Shown piece by piece: positions 8,068 to 27,642 of a stretch of DNA of 58,264 nucleotides (positions within the stretch are counted from its first letter, which is position 1; every line of letters starts with the position of its first letter). Origin of the DNA: Labilithrix sp. (lineage in GTDB: Bacteria; Myxococcota_A; Polyangia; Polyangiales; Polyangiaceae); assembly GCA_019637105.1 (NCBI GenBank), contig JAHBWF010000035.1, forward strand, positions 1 through 58,264, given 5' to 3'. A model generated the notes under the pieces. That model worked only from the letters and a program-made list of their open reading frames with translations, ran no database searches and was not told where the DNA came from. The position numbers were made by a program, and so were the translations under genes.

Positions 8068-8829
8068 TCAGTCCCTGGTACGTTGCGCGAGCGAGCGAAC
8101 GCGGGCCGCGTAGGCGCTGCTCGGATTGGCCGCGAGGAAGCGCTCCGCGAGAGCATGTGCGCGGTCCCGCTCTCCCGAGTCGGCGAGCGCCTCGATGCGA
8201 ATGACCTCGATCTCTTCCGCGAAGAGCCCGGAAGGGAAGCGCGCCCGATAGCGCTCGACGGCGCGCAGGGAGGCGGGGGTGTCGCTCGCCGCGAGGGCCG
8301 CGCGGGCCGCCGACAGGAGCCCGAGCTCTTCGTCGAAGGTCGAGCGCTCCGCACCGGCAGATCCCCCCTGCGCCCTCTCGTGTCGGTCACCGCTCGCCTT
8401 CGCGGTCGGCGGTCGTCCGCGAGGTGCGACGGCTCGGATGGCGCTCGCCGAAGCGACGGCGAGCGGCGGCGGTTCCCGCGCCGAGGGGGCGATGCTCTCC
8501 GGCATCGTCGACGGCTCCGCGGCCGACGCGACGACGGGGCCGGCGGGCGACGCGGCCGGCGACGCGGTCCCTTCGGCGTTCTTCGCGGCGGCGCCGCCGA
8601 CCGAGGAGAGACTCGACGCGGCGATGAGGCCGAGCATCGAAGCCCCCACGACGGCGGTGCCCGCCCCCAACCACCGCCACGATCGCGGTCGCGACGCCGA
8701 CGCCATGCGCCTCGCGAGCGACACGGCTTCGTCGACCTGGGCGGGCGTGGGACCGTCCTCCTCGCTCGCGGCGACGAGGTGCGCGAAGTCCGGATCTTCG
8801 TGAACGAGGCGCGTCGGTTCGATCGTCAT
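8068..8829 (-). CDS. Single-pass TPR-like protein, probable anti-sigma partner
   Basis: 253 residues: a cytoplasmic N-terminus of about 50 residues, one membrane segment near residues 52-72 (LGAGTAVVGASMLGLIAA), an Ala/Pro-rich linker, and a C-terminal helical domain of about 80 residues with TPR-like features (YRARFPSGLFAEE, ALADSGERDRAHALAERFL, NPSSAYAARVRSL). The start overlaps the sigma factor stop (ATGA, 8826-8829). A membrane-anchored gene coupled to an ECF sigma factor suggests an anti-sigma role, but no zinc-finger ZAS motif is present, so this is inference. It closely parallels the protein at 25997-26788, which has the same layout and the same kind of C-terminal domain. Confidence 0.7.
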   Translation of the reverse strand: MTIEPTRLVHEDPDFAHLVAASEEDGPTPAQVDEAVSLARRMASASRPRSWRWLGAGTAVVGASMLGLIAASSLSSVGGAAAKNAEGTASPAASPAGPVVASAAEPSTMPESIAPSAREPPPLAVASASAIRAVAPRGRPPTAKASGDRHERAQGGSAGAERSTFDEELGLLSAARAALAASDTPASLRAVERYRARFPSGLFAEEIEVIRIEALADSGERDRAHALAERFLAANPSSAYAARVRSLAQRTRD

Positions 8830-9521
8830 TTGTCTCGGCCCCCGCCCGTGCGTGCACGATGACGCTCGAGCCGTGCACGGAAGTCGTCGCGCGCGCGTCG
8901 GAGGCGGGATGCGACCGTCCCGAGGGGAACCTCGATCACGTCGGCGATCTCCTGCATCGTCATCTGTTCGAGCTCATACATGACGAACACCGCGCGCAGG
9001 CTCTCTTCGAGCTCCGAGAGCAAGCGGTAGAGGAGCGCTCGCGCCCTCGCGCCGTCGAGGCGCTCTTCGGGCGATGCGACCGTCTCGTCGTGCGCGCTCT
9101 CGGGATCGAGATGTTCGGTCGGCACTTCACGCGCCTGCTTCTTCTTGAGGTTGGACGCGATCCGGAGCGCCGCCCCGAACAGGAACGCGCGTTCACTGCC
9201 CGGCTTCACCTCGTCGAGCCGCCGGAGCACGACGAGGAAGAGGTCCTGCGCGGCGTCGTCGATGACGTCCGGCTCGAAGCCGAGCCGCCGGAGGAAACGC
9301 CAGACGTTCGCAAAGTGAGCCCGCACGAGCTCGGGGAGGAGCTCGGCTCGTTCGCTCACGTGTTCATCCGAACGCGCCGTCGGCGAGGCGCGCCCGCGGA
9401 CCATGGATCCGGCCACGCTGGCGGCAGCCGCAGAGGCGGTCGACGTGGTGAGCACTCGGCGTAGTAGTGCCGGCTCGACGTTCTGATCACGAAATCGTCC
9501 TCGGGTCCCCCCGGGGCTCAC
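8826..9521 (-). CDS. ECF-type RNA polymerase sigma factor
   Basis: Sigma-70 family ECF regulator, 231 residues from the GTG at 9521, which overlaps the stop of the upstream barrel gene. The first 40 residues are not conserved-looking, and ATG 9404 (MVRGRAS) is a realistic alternative start. Region 2 is visible in FANVWRFLRRLGFEPDVIDD and QDLFLVVLRRL; region 4 in YELEQMTMQEIADVIEVPLG followed by TVASRLRRARDDFRARL, the helix-turn-helix that reads the -35 element. It should direct RNA polymerase to a small regulon, which may include its own operon (inference). Sequence and context match the second ECF sigma factor at 25431-26000. Confidence 0.85.
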   Translation of the reverse strand: MSPGGTRGRFRDQNVEPALLRRVLTTSTASAAAASVAGSMVRGRASPTARSDEHVSERAELLPELVRAHFANVWRFLRRLGFEPDVIDDAAQDLFLVVLRRLDEVKPGSERAFLFGAALRIASNLKKKQAREVPTEHLDPESAHDETVASPEERLDGARARALLYRLLSELEESLRAVFVMYELEQMTMQEIADVIEVPLGTVASRLRRARDDFRARLERHRARTGGGRDK

Positions 9522-10627
9522 AGTCTAACGCCGACGCCGATGCCTCCGAGCAGACCGACCGCGGGCACGCTCGCCGCAACCGTCCCGCTGGTGAGGACGA
9601 ACGGACGCCGGAAGAGCGGCGCCGTCACGAGGACGGTCGAGCTCAAGAAGACCTTCTGCGAGAGGTACACGGCGGCCCACACCGACCCGCCGAGATCGAG
9701 CCAGGTGATCGACGCTTGCCGCGCGCGGGCGAAGCCCTGGGCCGAGCTGCGGAGGATCCCGAGGTTCATCTCGGCGCACGGCGCGACCTCCACGATCCGT
9801 GCGATCGTGAGCTCGTGAGGGCATGCGCGGAAATTTCCCGCCAGCCACAGGAAGTCGACGCTCCCTCCGCTCAGCGCCCGCTCCTTCGGGAGGCTCTGCC
9901 GCAGCCCGAGCGCAAAGCTCGGCTTCCATCCGCGCATCCAGCCGGGCTCTTCCGGGGCTGGAAGGATGAGCCTCATCGAGGCTCCGACGCCGGGAAGCGC
10001 GCCGCGGATGACCGCGGACGTGGACTCGAGGCGGACGTCGAGCGCGATCGCCGGGCCGGAGGATGGGGGGCGACCGGTGGGGGATCGCTTGCGACCGACC
10101 CGCGGGGCCTCGTCGCGCGGTCGGTCGGCGGGGGCCTCCTCCGTCCGCCCGTCGGCACGCGGCTCCTCGGGCCGTTCGCCGGCGATCGGCTTCGTGTCGT
10201 TCGTGCCGGCGGCGCGGAGGTCGATGGCCACCCCGACCATGATCGCCATGGCCCGTGCCACGCCCGCGCAGGTCGGGCCGACGAGATGGCGCTCGGCGAG
10301 GGGCCCAGCCTCGTTCGCGACGACCAAGGTGCCGAGCCATTCGTCTCCGCTCCCGGACACGCGAACGCGGAACGTTCGCTCCGCCTGCGTCCCCTCGGGA
10401 ACGGCCGACCAACGACTCGTGTGCGCGCGCACCGTCGCGAAGAACTCGGCTTGCGAAGGACATCCGCTGGTCGCGTTCGGCTCGGCTTCGTACGAGAGGG
10501 CGACCGGCTCGACCTCCGGGCCCTCCGCTCGCGCGGTCAGCGCGACGAGCAGAGCGGCGGCCGCCACGAGGCCACGCCCGAACGTCACCGAGAGCCTCGG
10601 CTCGCTTCGCCTGCTCACGTCCGCCAT
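9518..10627 (-). CDS. Secreted barrel-like protein of the ECF sigma cassette
   Basis: 369 residues with a signal peptide (GLVAAAALLVALTARA, cleavage near residue 35). The mature N-terminal domain has one Cys at GCPSQAEF and another at GPTCAGVA, then AMAIMVGVAIDL. A charged Pro/Arg-rich linker (about residues 160-200) follows. The C-terminal half alternates hydrophobic residues and Gly, as in outer-membrane beta-barrels, and ends ...GIGVGVRL. The partner protein at 24381-25430 has the same order: signal, two-Cys domain ending in a hydrophobic VLVIALMID segment, linker, barrel-like part. It is the first gene of the minus-strand run and its TGA overlaps the sigma factor start. I infer an envelope sensor or porin-like protein; no named family was recognised. 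Confidence 0.65.
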   Translation of the reverse strand: MADVSRRSEPRLSVTFGRGLVAAAALLVALTARAEGPEVEPVALSYEAEPNATSGCPSQAEFFATVRAHTSRWSAVPEGTQAERTFRVRVSGSGDEWLGTLVVANEAGPLAERHLVGPTCAGVARAMAIMVGVAIDLRAAGTNDTKPIAGERPEEPRADGRTEEAPADRPRDEAPRVGRKRSPTGRPPSSGPAIALDVRLESTSAVIRGALPGVGASMRLILPAPEEPGWMRGWKPSFALGLRQSLPKERALSGGSVDFLWLAGNFRACPHELTIARIVEVAPCAEMNLGILRSSAQGFARARQASITWLDLGGSVWAAVYLSQKVFLSSTVLVTAPLFRRPFVLTSGTVAASVPAVGLLGGIGVGVRL

Positions 10628-10939
10628 CGGGCCGCGCTCGAACGTACCCTGTCGACGAGCGACGCGGGAGGGACCTCGTTCTCCGTCGATCGAAGCGAGA
10701 AGGACCTCTACGGAAGCTGGCCTGCGAACGCTCGACGAGCGAAGGCCCTAGCCCCCGGACAGTGAGCCGGGGCCCGAGGCGGTCCTGGCCTTCTTCGTAG
10801 AGTGGGTTCAGCGAGGGTCGGAAGAGCCGCTTCTCGGACGCGCCAGCGACCACGACCACGACGATCGCGCTGCGCGTCGGCACGCCCCGCACCTCCGCTC
10901 CTGCTCGGAGGAGCCTGCGACGGCGCAGCGGCGAGGCGC
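10628..10939. other. Intergenic region with a weak hairpin
   Basis: About 310 bases between the start of the barrel gene and the end of the kinase gene, both on the minus strand. It should hold the promoter of the eight-gene run and the end of the kinase transcript. A GC-rich stem (10751-10758 with 10767-10773, one bulge) could be a terminator, but no T-run follows on either side. No convincing gene was seen. Confidence 0.35.
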
Positions 10940-12733
10940 TCAGCGGCGGAGGATGCGCGCCTTGCCGACGACGGTCGGCGCCTTCGCGAGCGTCGTCCCT
11001 TCGAGCGTCAGCGTCACGGCGCCGACGAGCGAGACGTCGCCGAGGACGCGGCACCGACGGAGCGTGAGCTCTGCCTGGTTCAGCACGTTCACCGAACGCG
11101 GTCCGTCGATCACGCAGTCCTCGAGCGTCGCCTTGCACAGTCCGCTGATCGTCACCGCGGAGGTGACCTCGCGGGCCTCCCGATCCGCGCCGTAGTGCCC
11201 GCCGCGCCGGTGCTCGACGTTGTCGCCGCCGCAGAAGAGCGTCTCCATGAGCTCGCCGCGCGCGGGCTGGCCGGCGCCGCCGGACGCCGCCGGAGGCGCG
11301 TCTTTCGCGGGATCGTCGGCGGGCGAACGCACCTTCGCGGCGACGCGCGCCGCGCCGGGAGCGACGCCGCTGCCCTCGCTCGGCTCATCCGCGCTCGGCT
11401 CGCTCGCGCCGCTCGGCTCGCTCGCGCCGCTCGGCTCGCCCGCGCCGCTCGGCTCACCCGCGCCGCTCGGCTCGGACTCGCTCGTCGTGGTCGCCTCGCT
11501 CGCCGTACCTCGTCGCGCGAGGCGCGGCGCGACGACGGCCAGCGTCGACGCGGCCACGATGGCGGTGACGCCGACGCCCGCGGCGACGAAGACCCCCGAG
11601 CCACGACGCGTCGGCGGCGGCGACGCCGACCGCGCGACGCCGCTCGGCCCCGCGCTCGAGCCGAACGCCGGTCCGGGATGCGCCACCTCCGCGCGCGGCG
11701 GCGGCGCCGGCGGGGGGACGCCCGCGCTCCGCGCCAGCCCCTCGAGCAGCACGAGCCCGCGATGGACGTCGGCGGCCGAGGCCGGCCGCGCCTGCGGATC
11801 CTTCGCGAGGAGCGCCTCGACGACGAGGATGAACGCCTCCGGGACGCCGCGCGTGAGCGTCCTCAGGTCGGGCGCGGCGTGGTCGACGATCCGCACCCAG
11901 ACCGTGAAGAGGTCCTCCCCTTGGAACGGCCTCACGCCGGAGACGGCCTCGTAGAAGAGGACGCCGAGCGCGAACAGATCCGCGCGCGCGTCGACGTTCT
12001 TCGGGTCCTTCACCTGCTCGGGCGCCATGTAGAACGGCGTCCCGAGGACGGCCTGCGACGCCGTGCGCTCGAGCCCGTCGCGCACCCGCACGAGGCCGAA
12101 GTCGAGGAGCTTCGCGTCCTCGACGCGACCTCCCGGCAAGAACACGTTGCGCGGGCCGAGGTCGCGGTGCACGGCGCCCAGCGCGTGCGCGTGGGCGAGC
12201 GCCGCGGTGAGGCGAAGCCCGAGGATCCGGACCGCCTGCCACGGCAGCGGACCGCGCCGGAGACGGCGCTCGAGGTCTTCGCCGTCGAGCCACTCCATCG
12301 CGAGGTACAGCCCGTGCGGCGTCTCGCCGTGACCGATGTACCGGACGATGCCGGGGTGCGCGAGCCGCGAGAGCGTCTCGACCTCGCGGCCGAAGCGCGC
12401 GCGCCACGCGAGGTCCGTCACGTACTTGAGCGCGACGACCTGCTTCGTGCGGTCGTCGACGGCGCGGTACACCGTGCCCGCGGCCCCGCTCCCGATCGGG
12501 CGCTCGATCCGGTAGGGCCCCGCGTGGGTGAGCCCCGAGCTGTCGGCGATCGGCGTGCGCTCGGTGTCGGCCGCGCCGCCGGACTCGTCGGCGTCGGCCT
12601 TCGCGAGCTCGGCGAGGAGCTCGCGACACGCGTCGCACGACTCGATGTGACGCTCGACCTGCGCCCGCGCGGCCGAAGGGAGCCGCCCGTCGAGGAGCTC
12701 GAGAGCGCCGTTGTCATCGAGGCAGTCCGACAT
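10940..12733 (-). CDS. Zinc-finger (ZAS-like) Ser/Thr protein kinase
   Basis: 597-residue protein joining an anti-sigma-type zinc finger to a Hanks kinase. The N-terminus has Cys4 and the HxxxCxxC motif HIESCDAC (residues about 28-35). The kinase domain (about 73-330) has a Gly-rich loop GSGAAGTVY, the ATP-binding Lys in VALKY, DFG in LLDFGLV and APEQ. The catalytic loop is unusual: HRDLGPRN instead of HRDLKPxN, so the conserved Lys is Gly and activity may be altered. A membrane segment (VFVAAGVGVTAIVAAS) follows, then five EPSGA-like repeats. The extracytoplasmic tail resembles a short parallel-beta repeat (VTISGLCKATLEDCVI, LTLRRCRVLGD). It is transcribed divergently from a sigma factor gene 89 bases away, which it may control (inference). 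Confidence 0.82.
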   Translation of the reverse strand: MSDCLDDNGALELLDGRLPSAARAQVERHIESCDACRELLAELAKADADESGGAADTERTPIADSSGLTHAGPYRIERPIGSGAAGTVYRAVDDRTKQVVALKYVTDLAWRARFGREVETLSRLAHPGIVRYIGHGETPHGLYLAMEWLDGEDLERRLRRGPLPWQAVRILGLRLTAALAHAHALGAVHRDLGPRNVFLPGGRVEDAKLLDFGLVRVRDGLERTASQAVLGTPFYMAPEQVKDPKNVDARADLFALGVLFYEAVSGVRPFQGEDLFTVWVRIVDHAAPDLRTLTRGVPEAFILVVEALLAKDPQARPASAADVHRGLVLLEGLARSAGVPPPAPPPRAEVAHPGPAFGSSAGPSGVARSASPPPTRRGSGVFVAAGVGVTAIVAASTLAVVAPRLARRGTASEATTTSESEPSGAGEPSGAGEPSGASEPSGASEPSADEPSEGSGVAPGAARVAAKVRSPADDPAKDAPPAASGGAGQPARGELMETLFCGGDNVEHRRGGHYGADREAREVTSAVTISGLCKATLEDCVIDGPRSVNVLNQAELTLRRCRVLGDVSLVGAVTLTLEGTTLAKAPTVVGKARILRR

Positions 12734-12822
12734 GATCCGCGTGTCCTGCCCCTAGCCTACCGGCGTCCTGGCGCGCCGTGATAGCCTCTGCCACCGCGAA
12801 CCACGCGGCGACGCGCGTTCCC

Positions 12823-13644
12823 ATGGACCTCGATCAATTCGTCTCGACAGCGATGGCGGCCTGGCCGCCGTGGCCGGGCGTGGATCCCGCGGCGTTCGCG
12901 CGCTTCGTCGACGAGCTCCGGGCGAACGCGGGGGAGAGCGATCCGTTGACCTCGCTCCACGGCGCCGATCTGTGGCTCGCGTTCCACGCGGGCTCCGGCG
13001 TCGCGCCCGCCGTCGCCGCCCTCGAGGCCGCGTGCTTCACCGATCTCGCGAGCGTCCTCCGCGCGCGACGCGCGGCCCCGGCGGAGGCCGAGGAGGCCGT
13101 GCAGCGGCTGCGCCACCGCCTGCTCGTCGCCGAGCCCGGACAGCGCGCGCGCATCCTGACGTACGCGGGGCGCGGAGAGCTGCGCGCCTGGATCCGCGTG
13201 GCGGCGGTGCGCGCGTGGCTCAACATGAAGCGCGAGACGCCACGCGCGAACGCAGGCCCGAGCGTCGAGGACGCGCTCGTCACGGAGGCGACGAGCGATC
13301 TCGAGCTCGAGCTGCTCAAGGGGAAGTACCGCGATCTTTTCCGCCGTGCGTTCCTCGAGACCGTCGAGGCGCTCGCGCCGGGCACGCGCCTGCTCCTCAA
13401 GCTCCACTACCTCGACCGGCTCTCGATGGAGGAGGTCGGCAAGGTGCTCGGCGTCCACCGCCTCACCGTGCTCAGACGGCTGGAGCGCGCGCGCCACGAG
13501 CTCTCGGAGGGGACGAAGGAGCGGCTCGAGGTCGAGCTCCGCCTCGCGCCGCCGGAGGTCGAGAGCCTGCTCCGCCTGATCCAGAGCCGCCTCGACGTGA
13601 GCTTGCAGCACGCGCTCGCGGAGTCGCGGAGCGCCGCGGGCTGA
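12823..13644 (+). CDS. Sigma-70 family factor, Myxococcales gmx type
   Basis: 273-residue sigma factor resembling the TIGR03001-type family found in many copies in Myxococcales. Start at ATG 12823 (MDLDQF); an in-frame GTG at 12778 would add 15 residues. The N-terminal half (YAGRGELRAWIRVAAVRAWLN near residue 125) carries the region-2-like core, and LLKLHYLDRLSMEEVGKVLG followed by VHRLTVLRRLERARHEL is region 4 with the DNA-binding helix-turn-helix. The C-terminal helical tail of about 35 residues is typical of the family. It is divergent from the zinc-finger kinase, so the two probably share a promoter region and may form a sigma/anti-sigma pair. Confidence 0.82.
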   Translation: MDLDQFVSTAMAAWPPWPGVDPAAFARFVDELRANAGESDPLTSLHGADLWLAFHAGSGVAPAVAALEAACFTDLASVLRARRAAPAEAEEAVQRLRHRLLVAEPGQRARILTYAGRGELRAWIRVAAVRAWLNMKRETPRANAGPSVEDALVTEATSDLELELLKGKYRDLFRRAFLETVEALAPGTRLLLKLHYLDRLSMEEVGKVLGVHRLTVLRRLERARHELSEGTKERLEVELRLAPPEVESLLRLIQSRLDVSLQHALAESRSAAG

Positions 13645-13649
13645 CGCCG

Positions 13650-13699
13650 GCGACCGTCCAGCGCGGGCGGGGCCGCGACCGTCCAGCGCGGGCGGGGCC
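13650..13699. repeat. Perfect 25-bp tandem duplication
   Basis: Two identical head-to-tail copies of a 25-bp GC-rich unit (13650-13674 and 13675-13699; begins GCGACCGTCC), directly after the sigma factor stop and before the convergent membrane protein gene. There is no spacer, so it is not CRISPR-like. Function not evident. Confidence 0.85.
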
Positions 13700-13730
13700 G
13701 ACGTCTCCGCCCGGCGCTGCCGTCGTCCGC

Positions 13731-14150
13731 TCACACGAAGTGCAGCACGCCGTAGACGAGGGACGTCGCGATCGCGAGGCCGCCGAGCGGCACCTGGAAG
13801 ACCACGAGCTTCGAGCGGAGCGCGTCGCCCTTCGCGATCGCCATCGCGTTGCCGCGGAACACGTACGTCGAGATCAGACCGAAGCCGAGGAGGAGCCCCA
13901 CCGTGAAGTCGGCGACGCCCGAGAGCGCCCAGAAGACGAAGACGAGCGGGCTCTGCGCGAGCAGCCTCAGGTTGAGCACGCACTGGATCAGCTCCCAGAC
14001 GCCCCAGCCGAACATCGTCAGCCCGATCCAGCCCTGGTACTTCGCGAGCGTCGCCAGCTTCTCGGCGGCCTGAGCGGAGCGCCCGACGAGCAGAGAGGAC
14101 ATCGCCAGGAGCCCGCCCGCAATTCCGATCACCATCGAGAGAAGAAACAT
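13731..14150 (-). CDS. Four-helix membrane protein, function unknown
   Basis: 139-residue integral membrane protein starting at ATG 14150. Four hydrophobic segments are evident: MVIGIAGGLLAMSSLLV, WIGLTMFGWGVWELIQCVL, FVFWALSGVADFTVGLLLGF and QVPLGGLAIATSLVYGVLHFV at the very C-terminus. Short charged loops lie between them (AEKLATLAKY, GDALRSK). No known family was recognised. The same frame is open upstream to 14315 but without hydrophobic or conserved content. It is convergent with the sigma factor gene and is followed upstream by a degraded intergenic stretch. Confidence 0.65.
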   Translation of the reverse strand: MFLLSMVIGIAGGLLAMSSLLVGRSAQAAEKLATLAKYQGWIGLTMFGWGVWELIQCVLNLRLLAQSPLVFVFWALSGVADFTVGLLLGFGLISTYVFRGNAMAIAKGDALRSKLVVFQVPLGGLAIATSLVYGVLHFV

Positions 14151-14543
14151 GAGAGTGCCTCGCAAGGAGGGCGTGAGGCCGGCTCCGTGCCGGTCCTTGC
14201 CCTTCCGCGGAGGAGACACGGGCCGCGACGCAGCTGTAGCGGCCCGGACGCACGATTTTCTTTCGAGCTCGTCGCGCGCCCCCGCGGGCGCGAATTCGCG
14301 GAGCATTTCGTCCACAGGGCCTTCCCCCCGACGTCGGAGATCCGTTGGAGGAGCTCGCCCGCGACGCGGTGGAGCTCCTTTTCGTCGGTGGCTACGCCGT
14401 CGCGCTCCACGGGCGCCCGCGCGCCGCGCGGCGGGACGGCCTCAGGACCTCGCCGACGCCGCCTTCCTGGAGCGCGTCCGCGCGAGGCAGTCGTCGGGGG
14501 CCTGACGCCGAGCCTCCCGCGTGCGGCGGCTCGGACGCGGCGC
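14151..14543. other. Intergenic region with a decayed gene fragment
   Basis: About 390 bases between the membrane protein start and the end of ftsK. It contains the nucleotidyltransferase-like remnant listed separately and otherwise nothing recognisable; presumably also the promoter of the minus-strand membrane protein. No clear terminator T-run was seen. Confidence 0.4.
14345..14440 (+). pseudogene. Nucleotidyltransferase-like remnant
   Basis: A short frame from a TTG at 14345 reads LEELARDAVELLFVGGYAV then ALHGRPRA. The VGGYAV-HG-PRA pattern is the usual start of MNT/AbiEii-type nucleotidyltransferases (antitoxin or toxin partners), where T-x-D-x-D should follow. Here the sequence breaks off into unrelated Arg/Ser-rich residues, so the catalytic Asp pair is missing. 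I read it as a fragment of a lost toxin-antitoxin-type gene; chance similarity over about 20 residues cannot be excluded. Confidence 0.35.
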
Positions 14544-17552: not shown

Positions 17553-17706
17553 GCCTACGGTGACCTACATTGGAACCTACGGTACCTCGGCGGGTCGGGT
17601 CAACTTGGTGGAGTCGCCGGGGGCGGCCGCCCACGACCGGGGCCGGTTTATCCTTGGTTGTCCTGAGGATGTCGGCGTAATGTTCGGTGCCAACTCGAGG
17701 GAACGG

Positions 17707-19425: not shown

Positions 19426-19428
19426 CCC

Positions 19429-19447
19429 GCCCGAGCTCGCCTCGGGC
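19429..19447 (+). terminator. Hairpin directly after the HEAT-like gene
   Basis: Perfect 7-bp stem GCCCGAG/CTCGGGC with a 5-nt loop, starting four bases after the TGA at 19425 and followed by CTCTTGTGCTT. The position fits a rho-independent terminator, although the T-tract is poor. Confidence 0.5.
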
Positions 19448-19468
19448 CTCTTGTGCTTGGCGCTTCGT

Positions 19469-19496
19469 CAAGTCGTGGTTCTCGGAACCCGACTTG
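19469..19496 (+). terminator. Long hairpin with AT-rich tail
   Basis: Stem of 7 bp (CAAGTCG/CGACTTG) plus an inner 5 bp (GGTTC/GAACC) with one bulged T and a 3-nt loop, followed by the AT-rich TGCAATAATTTTCC. It is the strongest hairpin in this stretch, and the tail is unusual for such GC-rich DNA. Either the main terminator of the HEAT-like gene or a leader structure of the FHA gene starting at 19565. Confidence 0.5.
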
Positions 19497-19564
19497 TGCA
19501 ATAATTTTCCAAGACGGTCTCCTGACGGCGATCGTCATTCGATGAGGCACCGCCGAACGACGCG

Positions 19565-20365
19565 ATGAGCTCGGATCCCAACAAGAAGAGCGCTCGAACC
19601 TTCCAGTGCAGGGACATGCTCTGGGAGACGTTCGAGCAGATGGCGCGCGAGCTCGAATGCAGCGTCGACTACCTCATCAACGAGGCGATGAAGCAGTACG
19701 CCCGCCAGCGCAGCTACGGGCAGCGCACGCCCTACCCCGCCGGCGGCGGGCGCGGCGCGGAGAGCGGCGCGGGCGGAGGCTACGCGAGCGCGCCCCCGCC
19801 GATGCCCCCGCCGCAGTCGCTGCGCGGCGGCGGCGGGATGCCTTCCCGCGGCCAGGGCGGGCTCCCGCCTCCGCCGGCGCGCGGCGGCGGGCTCCCCGCG
19901 CCTCCGCCTCCCCCGCGCGGCATGGGCGGCATGGCGCCTCCGCCGCGGATGGGCGGCGCGGGCTCGATGCGCTCGCAGCCTCCGAGCGCTCCGCGGAGCG
20001 CGCCCCCGCCGATCCCGGGCGGGCGCAGCTCCGGCTCGATGCCCCCGATCCCGGGCGGCGGCTTCAACGGCGGCCTCTCGGCGGGCTCGGCGCTGAGCAT
20101 CATCTACCAGGGCGAGAAGCACGGCATCTCGAAGGACCGCTTCGTGATCGGGCGCGGCAAACAGTCGAGCGACCTGACGCTGAAGGACCCGAACGTCTCG
20201 CGCCAGCACGCGATGATCGAGTACCAGAACGGCGTCTACTTCATGGTCGACATGGGCTCGACCAACGGCGTCGAGTACAACGGCCAGCGCATCGCGCGGA
20301 AGCAGATCGCCGAGGGCGACGTCTTCCGCATCTGCGATCACGATCTCCGCTTCACGTACCGCTGA
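19565..20365 (+). CDS. FHA-domain protein with RHH-like N-terminus
   Basis: 266 residues in three parts. Residues about 8-50 (RTFQCRDMLWETFEQMARE, then LECSVDYLINEAMKQYARQ) resemble a ribbon-helix-helix DNA-binding fold: a short strand then two helices. A Pro/Gly/Met-rich disordered linker spans about 55-175. The last about 90 residues are a forkhead-associated phosphothreonine-binding domain: RFVIGRGKQSSDLTL, VSRQHAMIEY, DMGSTNGVEYNG and DVFRICDHDLRF, with the Arg, Ser, His and Asn of the binding site in place. It could bring kinase-phosphorylated partners to DNA (inference). The GTG of the next gene follows 7 bases after the stop, so co-transcription is likely. Confidence 0.82.
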   Translation: MSSDPNKKSARTFQCRDMLWETFEQMARELECSVDYLINEAMKQYARQRSYGQRTPYPAGGGRGAESGAGGGYASAPPPMPPPQSLRGGGGMPSRGQGGLPPPPARGGGLPAPPPPPRGMGGMAPPPRMGGAGSMRSQPPSAPRSAPPPIPGGRSSGSMPPIPGGGFNGGLSAGSALSIIYQGEKHGISKDRFVIGRGKQSSDLTLKDPNVSRQHAMIEYQNGVYFMVDMGSTNGVEYNGQRIARKQIAEGDVFRICDHDLRFTYR

Positions 20366-20372
20366 GGCGCGC

Positions 20373-21308
20373 GTGAAGGTCGCCGTCCTCGGCGCGGGCG
20401 CGCTCGGGAGCGTCTACGGGGCGCGCCTCGCGCTGCGCGGGCAGGTCGACGTCACGTTCGTCGTCCGCCCGGCGCGCGTGGCCTCGACCGAGCCGATCGT
20501 CGTCGAGGCGGTCCGCGGCGATCGGCGCGAGGTCGTCGAGGCGCCGTCGCGCGCGGACGCCGTCCCCCCCGACGCCGACGTGCTCCTCGTCGCGGTCGGG
20601 ACCTGTGACCTCGACGCGTCGACCGTTCCGCTCACGACGAGCGAGGCGCCGATCGTCGTCCTGACGCCGATGCTGCCGCCGGACTGGGCGCGCATGCGGG
20701 CGACGTTCGGCGAGCGCGTCCTCGCCGCGATGCCGAACGTCGTCGCGTACATGCGCGAGGACGGCGTCGTCCGCTACTGGACGCCGCCGGCTCCGACCAA
20801 GATCGACGAGCCCCGCGCCGGGAGCGCCGGCGCCGACGCGGTCCGCGAGCTCGCGGGGGCGCTCTCGCGCGCGGGCCTCCGCGGGCGACTCGAGCTCGGC
20901 GTCCACGAGAAGAACCCGGCGACGACCGTGTGCTTCATCGCGATCGGGATGGCGCTCTCGCTCGCGGGGAGCATCGCGGCGCTCGTCGACGACGAGCCGC
21001 TCCTCTCGCTGGCGACGCGCGCGTGCCGCGAGGGCGTGCGCCTGTCGCGGCGCATCGGTGCGCCGGAGCCGTGGGCGCCGCTCGCGCCCGCGCTGGCGGC
21101 TCCCTGGGCGCTCCGCGCGTGGCTCGGCGCGCTCGTCCGGCTCTCGCCCGAGGCCGCGTTCTACGCCGAGGAGCACTTCGGCCGGAAGCTCAGGGAGCAG
21201 CACCGGGCGATGATCCGCTCGATGATCGAGCTCGCCCGCGACCACGCGCTCCCGCGCGACGCGCTCGAAGAGCTCGGGCGCCGCCTCGAGGCCGCCCCGC
21301 CGCCCTGA
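20373..21308 (+). CDS. Ketopantoate reductase-like (ApbA/PanE family) protein
   Basis: 311-residue NAD(P)-dependent oxidoreductase of the ketopantoate reductase family, GTG start. The N-terminal Rossmann fold shows GAGALGSVYGARLA. The C-terminal half is helical, as in 6-phosphogluconate-dehydrogenase-like folds. The canonical family segment KLLxNxxxNPL around the catalytic Lys is replaced by HEKNPATTVCFIAIGMAL, so true PanE activity (ketopantoate to pantoate) is doubtful and I give no symbol. It lies 7 bases after the FHA gene and 130 bases before the Fe-S protein, with no other pantothenate genes nearby. Confidence 0.7.
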   Translation: MKVAVLGAGALGSVYGARLALRGQVDVTFVVRPARVASTEPIVVEAVRGDRREVVEAPSRADAVPPDADVLLVAVGTCDLDASTVPLTTSEAPIVVLTPMLPPDWARMRATFGERVLAAMPNVVAYMREDGVVRYWTPPAPTKIDEPRAGSAGADAVRELAGALSRAGLRGRLELGVHEKNPATTVCFIAIGMALSLAGSIAALVDDEPLLSLATRACREGVRLSRRIGAPEPWAPLAPALAAPWALRAWLGALVRLSPEAAFYAEEHFGRKLREQHRAMIRSMIELARDHALPRDALEELGRRLEAAPPP

Positions 21309-21438
21309 CGCGCAGATCGGCCGGTGGCGTCGTGGGCCGAGCGCCCGGCGCGAGGCGAGCGCTCCGGGCGTGCGCCAAAGCTCCGCGCGCGCCGAGGCCC
21401 CCAGCTCGCGCTCGACGGTCGGCCACGGGCCCTCGATA

Positions 21439-22623
21439 ATGCGCGGGATGGCCCGCCCCGACGATCGACCGCTCCGGCGGCTGCCGCAGCTCACGCCACG
21501 GAAGGCCACGCTGGAGCGCTGCGTCTTCTGCCCGAAGCTGTGCCGGAGCGCGTGCCCCGTGTCGAACGCCGAGCCGCGCGAGACGCTGACGCCGTGGGGC
21601 AAGATGAGCATGGCCTACTTCGTCGCGAACGAGAGCGTCGCGCTCGCGCCGTCGTTCGCCGCGCCGGCGTGGGCGTGCACCGGGTGCTTCGGCTGCCGCG
21701 AGCACTGCGATCACCACAACGACGTCACGGGGACGCTCTTCGCGGCGCGGAGCGCGCTGGCCCAGGCGGGCGAGATCCCCGCGCCGGCGCGCCGCGTGCT
21801 CGACCGGTTCGCCGAGCGCGCGGCGGCGCTCGGGAAGGTCGCGGCGGATCCCCGCGTTGGCTCGTCGGTGGATGCGAACGCGCGCGTCGCGGTCCTCGTC
21901 GGCTGCGAGCACGCGCGGCGGGGCACGGAGGCCGGCGCCGACACGGTGCGCGCCACGGCGCGGCTCGTCGGCGACAAGGTCGCGCTGGTGGACGTCTGCT
22001 GCGGCGCGCCCCTCCTCTACGCCGGCGATCACGACGGCTTCGTCCGACAGGGCGCGCGGATCGCCCGGGCGCTCGAGGGCCGCGAGCGCGTGATCGTCGG
22101 AGACGCCGGGTGCGCCGCCGCCCTCCGCGTCCACCACGCCGCCGCCGGCGTGACCATGCCGGCGCCGGTCGAGCACTTCTCGGAGCTCGCGGCGCGTGAG
22201 CTCGGCAAGCTCGGCCGCCTCGACGGCGCGCTCGGCGACGGCCCCGTACGCTGGCACGATCCCTGTCAGCTCGGCCGCGGGCTCGGCGTCTACGAGGCGC
22301 CGCGGCAGGTGCTCTCTCGCGCGCTCGGCCGCGCGCCCGACGAGTTCGAGCGGCGCCGGGCCGACGGCCGCTGCTCCGGCGCCGGCGGGCTCTTGCCGCT
22401 GACGATGCCCGACGTCGCGCGCGGCATCGCCGAGGAGCGCGTCGCCGATCACGAGCGCTCGGGCGGCGGCACCGTCGTCACCGCGTGCGCGTCGAGCCTG
22501 CGCTCCCTCCGGAAGAGCGGCGCGCGCGTGCTCGATCTCGCGACCGTCGTCATGCGCGCGCTCGACGCCGCGGAGGGCGCGCGCGATCCGCGGGCGGCTC
22601 CGCCCGGAGCCGGCGGGACCTAG
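21439..22623 (+). CDS. (Fe-S)-binding oxidoreductase subunit, GlpC/HdrD-like
   Basis: About 394 residues, soluble. Two N-terminal ferredoxin-type clusters are visible: CVFCPKLCRSACP and CTGCFGCREHC, enough ligands for two [4Fe-4S] centres. The C-terminal half carries two CCG-type repeats as in heterodisulfide reductase, glycolate oxidase GlcF and GlpC: LVGCEHARRG with VDVCCGAP, and HDPCQLGRG with GRCSGAGG and VTACASS. The second repeat is degenerate, since CCG became CSG. ATGs at 21439 and 21448 are both possible starts. The next gene, a histidine kinase, begins 6 bases after the stop, suggesting an operon that links electron transfer and signalling (inference). Its redox partner is not in the window. 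Confidence 0.8.
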   Translation: MRGMARPDDRPLRRLPQLTPRKATLERCVFCPKLCRSACPVSNAEPRETLTPWGKMSMAYFVANESVALAPSFAAPAWACTGCFGCREHCDHHNDVTGTLFAARSALAQAGEIPAPARRVLDRFAERAAALGKVAADPRVGSSVDANARVAVLVGCEHARRGTEAGADTVRATARLVGDKVALVDVCCGAPLLYAGDHDGFVRQGARIARALEGRERVIVGDAGCAAALRVHHAAAGVTMPAPVEHFSELAARELGKLGRLDGALGDGPVRWHDPCQLGRGLGVYEAPRQVLSRALGRAPDEFERRRADGRCSGAGGLLPLTMPDVARGIAEERVADHERSGGGTVVTACASSLRSLRKSGARVLDLATVVMRALDAAEGARDPRAAPPGAGGT

Positions 22624-22629
22624 TCGTTC

Positions 22630-24213
22630 ATGAGCCCGCGCGCGTCGCTCCCGCCGGACGTGAAGCCGAGCAAGACGCTCGCGACGCGCATCCTCGTCTC
22701 GTTCGCCGTCACGCTGCTCGCGTTCGCGGTGACGGTCGGCTTCACCGTCGCCGCGCAGAAGCGCGCCGCCGAGGACAGCGAGGAGCTCACCGACGGCTTC
22801 GTGCCGGTCGCGCTCAAGCTCGGGCGCCTCCGCGCGATCCAGTCGACCCTCGCGTCGATCGTCGACGGCATCCCCGACGAGAAGAGCCCGCAGTCGACGC
22901 TCGACATCCTGAAGACGCTCGACGGCGAGCGCCGCCTGATGTTCGAGGAGACGCGCGCGGCGATGCAGAACGAGCTCCGCTCGCTCGGGAGCGACGAGAC
23001 GCGTCAGCTCGCGCTCGTGCTCACCGGCGAGCTCGACGCGGCGGCGGCCGAGTGGGCCGGCGACCGCGAGGCGCGCGACCGCGTCTTCGCCGCGCTCGAA
23101 GAGGGCGACCGAGACGTGATCAACCGCGACCTGCTCGCCCTCGGCGCGATGGAGCACGCCGCGGACAAGCGCCTCCGCGCGCTGGCGGACCACGTCGAGA
23201 CGTCGATGAAGAGCCTCTCCGATGCGGCGCGCGCGCGCGAGGAGCGCGCCGTCGTGGAGCTGGCCCTGCTCGCCGCGCTCACGCTCGCGGTCGGCGTCGG
23301 CGTCTCGATCCACACCCGGCGGCTCCTCGGTCCGCTCGAGCGCGTCACCCAACGCGCCAAGGCCGTCGCGCGCGGGGACCTGACCCCCCAGCCGACGGAG
23401 CGCACCGACGACGAGATCGGCGAGCTCGCCGCGGCCTTCGAGCGGATGGTCGCCGCGGTCGCGAAGGCGCAGAACCGGGCGGTCGCGAACGAGCGGCTCG
23501 CGGCGATCGGCAAGATGGCCGCGCACGTCACGCACGAGATCAGGAACCCGCTCTCTTCGATCGGCCTCAACATCGAGCTGCTCGAGGAGAACCTCGTCGA
23601 GGCCGGCGCCTCGGGCGAGCCGCTGACGCTGCTCCAGGCGATCACCCGCGAGGTGCAGCGGCTCGAGCACCTCTCGGAGGAGTACCTCCGCGTCGCGCGC
23701 CTCCCGCAGCCGCGGATGGAGTCCGAGGACCTCGCCGCGAAGGTGCGCGAGATCGCCCTGTTCGCCAAGCCCGAGATGGATCGCGCCGGGCTCGCCCTCG
23801 AGCTCGACCTCGAGGACGACATCCCGCTCGTCTCGTTCGACGAGGGTCAGATCCGCCAGGCGATCCTCAACGTGCTCCGCAACGCCCGCGAGGCGATGAC
23901 GGACGGCGGCACCATCCGCGTCTACGTGCGCGCCGAGGGCATGAGCGTGGTCGTCGGCGTGGACGACGAGGGCGGCGGCATCCCGGAGGACGTCCGCTCG
24001 CGCATCTTCGATCCCTTCTTCTCGACGAAGGGCGAGGGCACGGGCCTCGGGCTCGCCATCACGCGCCAGATCGTCGAGGCGCACGGCGGCTCGATCGCCG
24101 TCGAGCCGCGCGAGGACAAGGGGACGAGCTTCCGCCTCCTGCTCCCGATCGCGCCGCCGCGCAGCTCAGGGCCGCACAGCCTCGCGCCCTCGAGCGCGGC
24201 GCGCCCCCTCTGA
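22630..24213 (+). CDS. Membrane sensor histidine kinase (HAMP)
   Basis: 527-residue two-component sensor. One membrane helix lies near residues 20-40 (ILVSFAVTLLAFAVTVGF) and a second near 210-232 (LALLAALTLAVGVGVSI), enclosing a helical periplasmic domain of about 170 residues. A HAMP domain follows (RRLLGPLERVTQRAKAVARG). HisKA has the phospho-acceptor His near residue 302 in HEIRNPL, and HATPase_c has NVLRNAREAM, DEGGGI, FDPFFSTKG and GTGLGLAI. All catalytic boxes are intact. No response regulator gene is adjacent, so it is an orphan. Probably co-transcribed with the Fe-S protein 6 bases upstream. Confidence 0.92.
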   Translation: MSPRASLPPDVKPSKTLATRILVSFAVTLLAFAVTVGFTVAAQKRAAEDSEELTDGFVPVALKLGRLRAIQSTLASIVDGIPDEKSPQSTLDILKTLDGERRLMFEETRAAMQNELRSLGSDETRQLALVLTGELDAAAAEWAGDREARDRVFAALEEGDRDVINRDLLALGAMEHAADKRLRALADHVETSMKSLSDAARAREERAVVELALLAALTLAVGVGVSIHTRRLLGPLERVTQRAKAVARGDLTPQPTERTDDEIGELAAAFERMVAAVAKAQNRAVANERLAAIGKMAAHVTHEIRNPLSSIGLNIELLEENLVEAGASGEPLTLLQAITREVQRLEHLSEEYLRVARLPQPRMESEDLAAKVREIALFAKPEMDRAGLALELDLEDDIPLVSFDEGQIRQAILNVLRNAREAMTDGGTIRVYVRAEGMSVVVGVDDEGGGIPEDVRSRIFDPFFSTKGEGTGLGLAITRQIVEAHGGSIAVEPREDKGTSFRLLLPIAPPRSSGPHSLAPSSAARPL

Positions 24214-24380
24214 CGGCCTCGAGAGCTCGTCGACGCCGATCGCCGCTCGGTGCTCCCACGCCGGACCGGCACACGACCGGCGGACCGGCGTCGGGCGAGC
24301 GAGCGGTGGCGCCTCGGGCCACGTTCGTACGCGATCCGTCCTTCAGGCTCGCCGCTCGAGGTACGCTGGCCGGGTATTCG

Positions 24381-25430
24381 ATGCTCGTACGGTCCCTTCC
24401 AGCGCGGCTCGCGCTCGCCACCTGCTTCGGCGGCGCCCTCGTCGCGGGCGGCGCGCGCGCCGAGACGCCGGTCACCTCCGCGCTGAGCTGGGTCCGGCTC
24501 CCGGGCGCGGAGTCGTGCATCACGACGCCGGAGCTCGGCGAGCGCGTGGAGAAGCACCTCGGGAGGCCGGTTTTGATGTCGCCGAGCGTGGCGGACGTGT
24601 CGATCGAGGGGCGCGTCGCGAGGACCGAGGCCGGCGGCACGCGGTACAAGGCCATCGTGGGCGGGACCCGCCGCGACGGGAGGTCGATCGGCACGCGCGA
24701 GATCACCTCGTCGACGTCCGACTGCCGCTCGCTCGACGACGGGCTGGTGCTCGTCATCGCGCTGATGATCGATCCGAACGCGCACACGCCGGCGCGACCC
24801 GAGCCGGCTCCGCCTCCCGCGAGCCCGTCGGTCGTGACGCGCGAGATCGTGCGCGAGCGGGTCATCGTCCGCGAGCTCGACCTTGAACGGAGCCCGCCCC
24901 GGGCGTCGCCGTGGCTCGTCCAGGGGGCGCTCACGGGCGCGGCCTCGATCGCCCGCCTGCCGGGGGTCGCGCCCGCCGCCGGCCTCGCGCTCCGGGCCGG
25001 GCCGAGCCGCCTCGTCGCGTTCGAGCTCTCGCTCGGCGCGGTCCCGTCGCAGACGCTCTCGGTCGGATCGCGCGCGGTGGACTACACCCTGCTCGAAGGC
25101 GGCCTCGCGATCTGCCCCACGGCGGGCCTCGGCGCGCGGGTGGAGGTCGGCGGTTGCGCGGGCGTTCGCCTGGGAGCGATCCGGACGCGGGGGCGTCGTT
25201 TCGAGACGGACAACGACGTCGATCGCGGCCTCGCCGACGTCGCCGCCGGGCCGCGCCTGACGGTGAAGCTCGCCGGGCCCGTGTTCGCGCTCGCGTCGGT
25301 GAGCGCGCTCCTCCCGCTGGTGCGGCAGGAGACGACCGTGCGGGACGCGGGCGCGCTCGTCGTGGTCGATCGGCGCGCTCCGCTCGGCGGCGAGGTGGGC
25401 CTCGGCGCTGGGATCCATTTTTCTCCGTAA
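24381..25430 (+). CDS. Secreted barrel-like protein, second ECF cassette
   Basis: 349 residues, first gene of the second barrel/sigma/TPR cassette. Signal peptide MLVRSLPARLALATCFGGAL ending at ARA near residue 27. The mature N-terminal domain has Cys at ESCITTPELGERV and TSDCRSLDD, then VLVIALMID, the same layout as the protein at 9518-10627. After a Pro linker and charged segment (VTREIVRERVIVREL) comes a Gly-rich amphipathic-strand region (AAGLALRAGPSRLVAFELS, CAGVRLGAIRTRG, GAGIHFSP at the end) typical of an outer-membrane barrel. The TAA stop directly abuts the ATG of the sigma factor gene. No named family recognised; an envelope sensor role is inferred. Confidence 0.65.
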   Translation: MLVRSLPARLALATCFGGALVAGGARAETPVTSALSWVRLPGAESCITTPELGERVEKHLGRPVLMSPSVADVSIEGRVARTEAGGTRYKAIVGGTRRDGRSIGTREITSSTSDCRSLDDGLVLVIALMIDPNAHTPARPEPAPPPASPSVVTREIVRERVIVRELDLERSPPRASPWLVQGALTGAASIARLPGVAPAAGLALRAGPSRLVAFELSLGAVPSQTLSVGSRAVDYTLLEGGLAICPTAGLGARVEVGGCAGVRLGAIRTRGRRFETDNDVDRGLADVAAGPRLTVKLAGPVFALASVSALLPLVRQETTVRDAGALVVVDRRAPLGGEVGLGAGIHFSP

Positions 25431-26000
25431 ATGAGCCCGCCCGACGCCATCACCAGGGATGTGCTGCTCGTGACCTCGGAGCCGCCCGCCGCGACGCGCT
25501 TCGCCGACCTCTACGTCGAGCACGCGTCGTTCGTGTGGCGGACGATGCGGCGACTCGGCGTGCGCGCCGCCGACGTCGAAGACACCTGCCAGGAGGTGTT
25601 CCTCGTCGTCCACGCGAAGCTCGCCGAGTTCCGAGGCGGATCGATGCGCGCGTGGATCTTCGCGATCGCCGCGCGAGTCGCCTCCGACTACCGCAAGCGC
25701 GCGTTCGTCCGCCGCGAGGCCGTAGGGGAGGAGCTGCCCGAGGCGTCGGTGCCCGAGGCGCAGACGGCCACCGTCGCGCGCGCCCAGGCGCTGGCGTTGC
25801 TCGACGCCATTCTCGCGGGCCTCGACGACGACAAGCGAGCGGTCTTCTTGTTGTTCGAGCTCGAGCAGATGCCGATGCAGGAGGTCGCGGCGGCGGTCGG
25901 CTGTCCGCTCCAGACGGCGTACACGAGGCTCCACGCGGCGCGCGAGCAGGTCAACGCGGCGATCGGGCGCTGGAAGAAGAGAGGAGGAGCGCGGTCATGA
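25431..26000 (+). CDS. ECF-type RNA polymerase sigma factor, second copy
   Basis: 189-residue ECF sigma factor whose ATG immediately follows the TAA of the barrel gene. Region 2: FVWRTMRRLGVRAADVED, then CQEVFLVVHAKLAEFRGG and WIFAIAARVASDYRKR. Region 4: LFELEQMPMQEVAAAVG then CPLQTAYTRLHAAREQV. Alignment by eye with the sigma factor at 8826-9521 is good (FVWR/NVWR, QEVFLVV/QDLFLVV, FELEQMPMQEVA/YELEQMTMQEIA), so the two are paralogues. The stop overlaps the start of the TPR-like gene (ATGA, 25997-26000). Confidence 0.87.
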   Translation: MSPPDAITRDVLLVTSEPPAATRFADLYVEHASFVWRTMRRLGVRAADVEDTCQEVFLVVHAKLAEFRGGSMRAWIFAIAARVASDYRKRAFVRREAVGEELPEASVPEAQTATVARAQALALLDAILAGLDDDKRAVFLLFELEQMPMQEVAAAVGCPLQTAYTRLHAAREQVNAAIGRWKKRGGARS

Positions 26001-26788
26001 CCGATCCCGAGCCGCTCCGGCCCCTGCTCCTCGACCCCGAGCTCCGCGCCGCCCTCGAGGCTCGCGGCGCCCACGAGCCGTCGCCCTCCGACCTCGCCCG
26101 CCTCCGCGAGCGGCTCGCCGGCGTCTTGCCGCCGGGGACGCTGCCGCCTCCGGTCGGACCGGGGGCGCCGGCGCCTCGGCCCCCCGCGTCCCCGCCGGCG
26201 CCGATCGCTGCCGCGGCGGGCAAGCTCGGGATCGGGCTCGCGCTCGCCGTCGCCGGCGCGGTGTGGCTCGCGCGCTCGGACGATGAGCCCGCGCCTCCGC
26301 CCTCGGCGCCGGCGTTGATCGCGCCGGCCTCGCCGACGGAGCCGGCGCCCCCACCGGCGCCCGAGAGGTCGACCGAGGAGGCTGTCCTCGGCGATCCTCC
26401 GACGCCTCCGCCCGTATCTTCGCGCGACCCGCGGACGCCGGCGAGGGCGCCCGCGGTCTCGCCCACGACGGCGAACGCGCCGGCGCCGACGAGCGCGGAC
26501 GCCGTCGGCGCGCCGCCGGAGGCGTCGTTGCTCGCGCGCGCGCACGACGAGCTCCTCCGAGGGGCGCCCGCCGACGCGCTCGGGACCGCCACGGAGCACG
26601 CGCGCGCGTATCCACGCGGGATGCTCTCGCAGGAGCGAGAGGTGATCGCGATCGAGGCGCTGGTCGCCCTCGGCCGCCGCGACGAGGCACGTCGACGGGC
26701 GGCGGCGTTCCACAGGAGCTACCCAGGTTCGAGCCACGCGGACCGCGTCGACCGCCTCGCGGGCGACCCTCCGGCGCCGGATCGCTGA
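25997..26788 (+). CDS. Single-pass TPR-like protein, second cassette
   Basis: 263 residues starting at ATG 25997, with a strong GAGGAGGAG ribosome binding site inside the sigma gene. A cytoplasmic N-terminus of about 75 residues (ending in Pro-rich sequence) leads to a membrane helix LGIGLALAVAGAVWLA, a long Pro/Ala/Thr linker, and a C-terminal helical domain (HARAYPRGMLSQEREVIAIE, ALVALGRRDEARRRAAAFH, RSYPGSSHADRVDRLAG). That domain matches the C-terminal domain of the protein at 8068-8829. Its coupling to the sigma factor gene and its membrane anchor suggest an anti-sigma role, without a visible ZAS motif; unproven. Confidence 0.7.
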   Translation: MTDPEPLRPLLLDPELRAALEARGAHEPSPSDLARLRERLAGVLPPGTLPPPVGPGAPAPRPPASPPAPIAAAAGKLGIGLALAVAGAVWLARSDDEPAPPPSAPALIAPASPTEPAPPPAPERSTEEAVLGDPPTPPPVSSRDPRTPARAPAVSPTTANAPAPTSADAVGAPPEASLLARAHDELLRGAPADALGTATEHARAYPRGMLSQEREVIAIEALVALGRRDEARRRAAAFHRSYPGSSHADRVDRLAGDPPAPDR

Positions 26789-27000: not shown

Positions 27001-27642
27001 GTGAGACGTATCCTCTTCCTCGGCCTCCTTCCTCTGATCGCCGCCTGGGCGATCGCCTGCACCGTGGGCGCGAACGTCGGCGAGCTCGGCGCCAGCGCGA
27101 GCGACGCCGGTGAGGACGGGGCGGCGGCGACCGACGGCGAGCTCGTGACCGAGGCGGACGCTTCCACCTCGATCGTCGACGCCGGCCGAGACGCGGAGCC
27201 GCCGATCGACGCGGGCTGCGGCGTCTCGTTCGAACAGCGCGGCGACTTCGTGGACGTCGGCGTCGTCATGGGGCCCCCGCCGAACCTCAACGGCGGCCCG
27301 ATCGCCGCGGGTCTGTACGAGCTCACGGCCCTGCGCGTCTACTTCGGCGCCGAAACCGGGACGATGCAGGTGCGCGAGACGATGCGCGTCCGCGGATCGA
27401 CGACCGCGGGTGCGTTCGACCGCCTCACCGAGGCGCGCAACGCCGTGGGCAGCTTCGAGGCGTACCCGCTCCGCGGAGAGACGCACACGTTCGAGGTCGG
27501 CGCCGGCCCGACGATCTTCGTGGCGCCCGAGTGCCCGGCGCCGGATCTCGAACACGGGACGCGCTTCGACGTGACCGGCACTACGTTTACGCTCTTCGAC
27601 GACGTGACGGCCACCGAGCGCGTCTACCGCCGCGTCGAGTAG
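27001..27642 (+). CDS. Small lipoprotein, function unknown
   Basis: 213 residues from the GTG at 27001, with AGAGG nine bases upstream. Signal peptide MRRILFLGLLPLIAAWAIA with lipidated Cys20. An Asp/Ala/Glu-rich linker (about 25-70) leads to a beta-rich domain with sequences such as GLYELTALRVYFG, GTMQVRETMRVRG and RFDVTGTTFTLFDD. No family recognised. It follows the second ECF cassette on the same strand after 212 bases, mirroring the lipoprotein run downstream of the first cassette. A 7-bp hairpin (26963-26979) lies in its leader. Confidence 0.68.
   Translation: MRRILFLGLLPLIAAWAIACTVGANVGELGASASDAGEDGAAATDGELVTEADASTSIVDAGRDAEPPIDAGCGVSFEQRGDFVDVGVVMGPPPNLNGGPIAAGLYELTALRVYFGAETGTMQVRETMRVRGSTTAGAFDRLTEARNAVGSFEAYPLRGETHTFEVGAGPTIFVAPECPAPDLEHGTRFDVTGTTFTLFDDVTATERVYRRVE

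Follow-up and report, generated by a model that had tools for sequence, protein, structure and literature searches.

A recurrent barrel, ECF sigma factor, TPR anchor and lipoprotein gene cassette of Myxococcota and its possible role in envelope signalling

Introduction

In the RpoE/RseA system, an extracytoplasmic function (ECF) sigma factor is held by a single-pass membrane protein. The present work deals with a gene cassette of Myxococcota that encodes a barrel protein, an ECF sigma factor, a membrane anchor with a TPR domain and a lipoprotein. It stands in two copies, A and B, in a stretch of Labilithrix sp. DNA of 58,264 nucleotides (nt) (contig JAHBWF010000035.1 of assembly GCA_019637105.1), which is called the window below. 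Four further described systems offer points of comparison. FecA/FecR/FecI combines an outer-membrane barrel bearing a periplasmic N-domain, a single-pass regulator with a cytoplasmic N-terminus and an ECF sigma factor (PMC9249621). In IutY (ECF243), the sigma factor is fused to a membrane anti-sigma factor and freed by proteolysis (PMC8999054). The lipoprotein RcsF is paired with OmpA and other barrels at the outer membrane (PMC4942254), and DdvS/DdvA of Myxococcus xanthus consists of an ECF sigma factor with a transmembrane anti-sigma factor (PMC12288465).

The cassette works like FecA/FecR/FecI, with an outer-membrane barrel and periplasmic N-domain, a single-pass sigma regulator and an ECF sigma factor, but it is not a member of that system, the plugged receptor and the FecR domain both being missing. 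Unlike FecA, its barrel is predicted to be 8-stranded, with no plug domain found in the predicted structure, and is not a TonB-dependent receptor. The FecR domain of the regulator is replaced by TPR; no FecR match was obtained among 14 TPR-anchor members, which matched TPR families instead. The main form also differs in being without Ton genes, which are confined to a side branch, and in adding a lipoprotein with a short motif, the LG motif. The original prediction had named ECF/anti-sigma and FecI-FecR-TonB-receptor systems as analogues. A fused family described below resembles IutY in uniting sigma factor, transmembrane segment and periplasmic part within a single polypeptide, for which proteolytic release would be needed; in contrast to IutY, the periplasmic part is a TPR domain and the barrel is not an iron receptor. 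As with RcsF and OmpA, a lipoprotein gene co-occurs with a gene for an OmpA-type barrel, a pairing known here from the genes alone, whereas the output is an ECF sigma factor rather than the Rcs phosphorelay and the lipoprotein heads are large and varied. Compared with RpoE/RseA, the cassette has a periplasmic TPR domain, a dedicated barrel and lipoprotein, and many paralogs per genome. No paper naming it was found in the literature searched, which covered few subscription journals and not the published ECF classification, and the cassette looks undescribed: a compact, many-copied myxobacterial gene set that may serve to sense the cell's own surface and to respond to it.

The two copies in the window

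A barrel / ECF sigma / TPR triad had been predicted at two places, and it was found at both in the claimed order and on the claimed strands. Lengths are in amino acids (aa).

Copy A
9518..10627, minus strand: barrel protein, 369 aa, with signal peptide, periplasmic two-Cys N-domain, Pro-rich linker and predicted 8-stranded barrel (AlphaFold2 mean pLDDT 85.3)
10199..10519, minus strand: N-domain of this protein (residues 37-143), TolB-N-like predicted fold, with Cys56 and Cys120
9521..10060, minus strand: 8-stranded OmpA-type barrel domain (residues 190-369), from the predicted structure
9463..9495, minus strand: promoter-like element ATTTCGTGATCA...CAC between the barrel and sigma genes
8826..9359, minus strand: ECF sigma factor, 177 aa; a longer GTG start at 9521 is doubtful
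8068..8829, minus strand: TPR anchor, the proposed anti-sigma factor, with cytoplasmic helical hairpin, one transmembrane segment, linker and periplasmic TPR domain
8695..8814, minus strand: helical hairpin of the anchor (residues 6-45), proposed sigma-binding part
8074..8361, minus strand: periplasmic TPR domain of the anchor (residues 157-252), BamD/YbgF-like
6787..8010, minus strand: lipoprotein with LG motif CTTVDKPLIIGDD and STIG1-like Cys-rich head
7879..7911, minus strand: LG motif of this lipoprotein, from lipobox Cys to Gly

Copy B
24381..25430, plus strand: barrel protein, 349 aa
25431..26000, plus strand: ECF sigma factor, 189 aa
25997..26788, plus strand: TPR anchor, 263 aa
26951..26983, plus strand: promoter-like element GTTTTTTCGATAA-N17-CAT before the lipoprotein gene (score 17.7, threshold 14.5)
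27001..27642, plus strand: lipoprotein with LG motif CTVGANVGELG (27058-27090)

The joints read as had been claimed, GTGA and ATGA in copy A and TAA-ATG and ATGA in copy B. The sigma start within GTGA (GTG 9521) is doubtful and was rejected, since a 23-nt difference in the near-ortholog locus L151 breaks the frame; the gene model starts at 9359. The reported likeness of the two copies was borne out for the sigma factors (39% identity, E 8e-27) and for the terminal TPR regions (46% identity across 59 aa, E 7e-6). The barrels match each other weakly (E 0.04); once relatives are added to the comparison, the two sequences belong to one family. "Present twice" proved an undercount, given 15 sigma/TPR pairs in the loci of this genome and 21 TPR-profile matches in the genome. 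The three-gene unit stood in so far as the triad co-occurs and fell short in that a fourth gene, the lipoprotein, belongs to it too.

Recurrence across the phylum

The comparison of loci demonstrates that, at the level of gene order and sequence, the barrel, the sigma factor, the coupled TPR protein and the LG lipoprotein are inherited as a unit. For a sigma-centred scan of named genomes, the best 80 of 280 relatives were kept (73 from myxobacterial groups, 6 labelled "deltaproteobacteria" only and 1 "bacterium" only), giving 873 kb of loci. Among the 71 loci with room on both flanks, TPR lay downstream of the sigma gene in 65, the barrel upstream in 61 and both in 61, so that the three genes form one unit recurring across Myxococcota. 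In the whole sample, 71 of 73 merged TPR matches and 69 of 74 barrel matches adjoin a sigma gene; the cassette is therefore not scattered, and the scatter without co-occurrence that had been named as counting against the module was not seen. Such locus counts were taken from six-frame searches, the gene caller having overlooked the sigma or TPR gene in some loci. Among the carriers of this gene order are two culturable species, Polyangium fumosum (L213) and Minicystis rosea (L173).

The genome of the window (8.45 Mb, 334 contigs) holds 33 matches to the copy B sigma factor (E 1e-5). The surroundings of sigma/TPR matches were fetched, several further copies being cut by contig ends, and a barrel was recognised upstream in 12 of the 15 sigma/TPR pairs. 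Two of the remaining three, L050 and L051, represent a variant with a barrel-like protein of about 500 aa. In another locus of this genome, L032, a second barrel-like gene (8279-9106, plus strand) is divergent from the cassette barrel gene. A TPR profile scan (E 0.001) gave a match in 68 of 112 genomes of the phylum, with the strong matches mostly within the same class. Outside the genome of the window, 60 of 61 eligible TPR matches were fetched (7 at contig starts were excluded), and a recognised barrel accompanied 28 of 52 unique pairs in this TPR-centred set, which includes a TonB-linked variant; altogether 30 of 136 unique sigma/TPR pairs were without one. Genes for ExbB, ExbD and TonB (or a TonB_C protein) were observed beside a barrel-like protein of about 510 aa, the sigma factor and the TPR anchor in L051 and in three loci elsewhere (L108, L119 and L127). 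Sigma distances correlate with TPR and barrel distances (rho 0.36-0.48; permutation maximum 0.14), which could reflect units duplicating together, linkage alone being also sufficient.

The barrel protein

The predicted two-Cys N-terminal domain and barrel-like C-terminus were upheld by an N-terminal Cys pair invariant in 15 of 15 aligned members from the genome of the window, with a second Cys pair nearly invariant, and by structure prediction. In the predicted structure, a periplasmic domain of TolB-N-like fold precedes an 8-stranded barrel of the OmpA type. Profile-profile comparison of the N-domain with TolB gave no match, and a relationship to TolB by profile was dropped.

The sigma factor and its TPR anchor

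Both window sigma factors match Sigma70_r2 and Sigma70_r4_2 above the Pfam cut-offs and consist of the sigma2 and sigma4 regions only; among solved structures, RpoE (1or7) is one of the closest. Of the 132 unique pairs that are unfused, 115 have sigma and TPR genes overlapping by exactly 4 nt (ATGA), which argues that their coupling is not due to chance. A hydrophobic segment is present in 130 of the 132 anchors, flanked by a mean charge of +1.47 on its N-terminal and +0.12 on its C-terminal side (the former higher in 90/130). Judged from these sequences, the TPR protein has the features of a membrane anti-sigma factor, namely a single transmembrane segment, a cytoplasmic N-terminus and a gene coupled to that of the sigma factor. 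By profile, the TPR domain of copy A is closest to BamD (9pxg, E 1.6e-4), and Foldseek returned BamD (3tgo, E 4e-3) and YbgF (2e-2), every match lying above E 0.001.

Natural fusions speak for the proposed partnership of the two proteins. In genome G099, sigma factor, transmembrane segment and TPR domain are found in a single open frame at four loci, and the fused family has matches in 24 of 26 searched genomes, with at least 67 full-length, stop-free sigma-TM-TPR matches in at least 19 genomes (query residue 21 or lower to 401 or higher; hand-counted and rechecked, a lower bound). Of 10 loci read, one of them the query itself, 7 show the hairpin motif after sigma region 4 and ahead of the transmembrane segment; for the other three the wrong stretch was printed. 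The fusion fixes the topology, with the sigma factor inside and the TPR domain outside. Sigma factor and anchor are unfused in both window copies.

A promoter-like element shared by sigma and lipoprotein genes

An element with the consensus TTTyCGTGATC-N18-CAT stands before the sigma gene and before separately transcribed lipoprotein genes. It emerged when 86 junctions between barrel and sigma genes were scanned in an unbiased manner: TTT-N3-TGA occurred in 38 (1.8 expected) and GTGATC in 35 (3.4 expected); canonical GGAAC/CGT patterns were not enriched in these junctions, and such a promoter was rejected. The aligned sites read TTTyCGTGATC(A/G) followed by CA(T/C). In the commonest arrangement, seen in 15 of 37 training sites, CA(T/C) lies 23 nt beyond the T of TGATC, a spacing usual for ECF promoters; 14 of the 37 have no CA(T/C) nearby. 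The strict core is present in 48 of 136 junctions, at 129 times its density over the remainder of the loci. Its 20 full matches elsewhere in the loci (match counts include overlapping starts of single sites) amount to 11 distinct sites, seven of which precede genes for secreted or lipoprotein-like products and two of which lie inside genes. With a matrix at a 1% threshold, the element was detected in 10 of 55 gaps between TPR and the next gene (four of the ten being near-identical Polyangium loci and one being copy B), in 0 of 97 barrel-start stretches and in 1 of 66 control gaps. The best motif upstream of the barrel (77 sequences) was AGG-N8-GAG (z 8.7), which is unlike the element. In the genome of the window, the pattern was found at 15 separate positions and its reversed control nowhere: 2 before a cassette sigma gene, 4 before lipoprotein-like genes, 4 inside genes and 5 without a called gene. 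More than 40 nt between barrel and sigma genes, the element included, are almost letter-identical between copy A (about 9450-9510, minus strand) and L151 (about 5850-5910), above the level of their surroundings.

Sigma and lipoprotein sites of the same cassette resemble each other. In 13 loci, cognate sites have 19.5 letters in common against 16.2, a value reached in 0 of 10,000 shuffles, and the resemblance persists when TGATC and CAT themselves are left out of the comparison (P 1e-4). Stretches drawn at random from these loci gave no excess (7.01 versus 6.99), so base composition common to a locus is not the cause. As the 13 loci were hand-picked for having a separate lipoprotein site, it is only the pairing that this comparison tests; a first version with wrong sigma sites in some loci gave P 0.0034, a second used the 11 of 13 passing a score cut, and the final one all 13. 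Since the element lies after the barrel gene, the barrel and sigma genes are in many copies probably transcribed separately. With cognate elements before sigma and lipoprotein genes and none before the barrel, the most likely arrangement suggested by these sites is that the sigma factor drives its own gene along with those for the TPR anchor and lipoprotein, the barrel being made separately.

The lipoprotein and its LG motif

The next gene after TPR on the same strand was collected in 99 cassettes and was lipoprotein-like in 80. The LG motif, C-x3/4-D-V-S-L-G, was scored as [VIL]G 4 to 12 residues behind the lipidated Cys. Among the first genes 57 of 80 have it, compared with 6 of 44 in second position, 2 of 30 in third position and 22 of 185 in the lipoprotein background, which includes some cassette-linked divergent lipoproteins. 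The lipobox rule had been loosened once, identically for all groups; the stricter rule gave 45/67 first genes versus 19/163 in the background. When the remaining parts of the proteins were clustered by homology, the enrichment persisted (29/40 clusters versus 12/127, p 3e-14), and the motif is thus not merely inherited with one head; within mixed families it occurs in 31 of 46 members encoded by a first gene and in 17 of the 108 remaining members. The heads are varied and include STIG1-like Cys-rich and RCC1 types. An LG lipoprotein is the next gene in 47 of 93 cassettes with a barrel and in 3 of 25 without, and both window copies carry one after the TPR gene.

In copy A, the lipoprotein gene is followed on the same strand by further genes, and the run 1014..6790 possibly represents additional output genes:

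5612-6790 and 4176-5606, minus strand: propeller-like lipoproteins
2795-4129, minus strand: RCC1-repeat lipoprotein
1014-2798, minus strand: lipoprotein-like protein with IgGFc-binding domain (PF17517, E 1.5e-96), end of the run

A lipoprotein with an LG-like motif, CASGADVG, is encoded at 31440-32180 (minus strand), away from any cassette. A Ser/Thr protein kinase with N-terminal zf-HC2 (10940-12733, minus strand; Pkinase E 1.5e-42, zf-HC2 E 1.5e-5) is encoded 312 nt upstream of the copy A barrel gene on the same strand, and a gene named by reading as a putative sensor histidine kinase (22630-24213, plus strand) ends 167 nt before the copy B barrel gene.

A proposed trans-envelope module and its alternatives

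The cassette is likely to be a self-activating ECF module that spans the envelope, with the TPR protein as anti-sigma factor, the barrel as input and the lipoprotein as main output. The N-terminal hairpin of the TPR protein would hold the sigma factor at the inner membrane, the BamD/YbgF-like periplasmic domain would read the outer membrane, and the independently made barrel would supply the input. An altered contact between barrel and TPR domain might then release the sigma factor; in the fused family, release would have to involve proteolysis, or the sigma factor would work membrane-bound. Once released, it would switch on its own operon of sigma factor, TPR anchor and lipoprotein. The loop may be closed by the LG motif, through which freshly produced lipoprotein would dock on either the barrel or the TPR domain. 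A more specific version is offered tentatively: the LG lipoprotein docks on or threads into the barrel with the TolB-like domain, the TPR anti-sigma factor reads the complex and releases the sigma factor for more lipoprotein, and paralogs with different heads act as private surface channels throughout the phylum.

Several observations weigh against the trans-envelope module. The hairpin has no anti-sigma domain in Pfam or the Protein Data Bank (PDB), where matches were at chance level, and a known domain of this kind was rejected for it. Mutual information between sigma factor and TPR N-terminus (top-20 mean 3.98) was below that with the periplasmic TPR domain (5.01) in a shallow alignment of 132 pairs (effective 107), and coevolution was dropped as support for their contact. 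An LG lipoprotein comes next in only 47 of the 93 barrel-bearing cassettes. The strict core is missing in 88 of 136 junctions; the matrix score of 52 of 130 junctions is circular, the matrix having been trained on junctions. The spacing of the copy A element is 3 nt shorter than the commonest, and in copy B no element was found before the sigma gene. Finally, the barrel is a putative signaller; in the envelope-sensing module of the original prediction, the three-gene unit and, through the fusions, the TPR protein as sigma partner found support, and the sensory role of the barrel is the part that stays inferential.

Alternatively, the TPR domain, closest to BamD by profile and by fold, could belong to an assembly checkpoint and act in the manner of BamD's substrate-binding part, catching a mislocalised barrel or LG lipoprotein so that the sigma factor raises production or repair, with both proteins as clients and not sensors. 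That the lipoprotein is a likely sigma target fits this explanation, which we nevertheless consider unlikely: all Foldseek matches lie above E 0.001, and the absence of the element from the 97 barrel-upstream stretches scored leaves the barrel outside the response. The missing anti-sigma domain and coevolution signal would suit a TPR protein that serves as an activator or scaffold needed by the sigma factor, as FecR is for FecI, with sigma levels set mainly by its own transcription; fusion through a transmembrane segment means a tethered sigma factor, however, and resembles inhibition as in IutY, which makes such a role improbable.

A TonB- or Tol-powered relative of iron cell-surface signalling, in which TonB or TolA pulls the N-domain and energises the contact between the two membranes, appears quite improbable, considering that the main form, both window copies included, has no adjoining Ton genes, that the predicted barrel has no plug and that the TolB profile comparison gave no match. 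Mere operon bookkeeping, in which unrelated envelope genes are kept together by happenstance without signalling via the barrel, could account for the 30 of 136 pairs without a recognised barrel, but phylum-wide recurrence, a common lipoprotein motif and cognate promoter-like sites render it very improbable.

Significance

Myxobacteria possess many ECF sigma factors with unknown inputs, and in the cassette a large group of these has one shared anatomy. It assigns to these sigma factors a likely inhibitor, a likely promoter sequence and a likely target, by which inputs and outputs become testable. The LG motif may serve as a docking or sorting tag for lipoproteins and, if the trans-envelope module is true, the cassette would constitute a route by which an OmpA-type barrel signals to a sigma factor.

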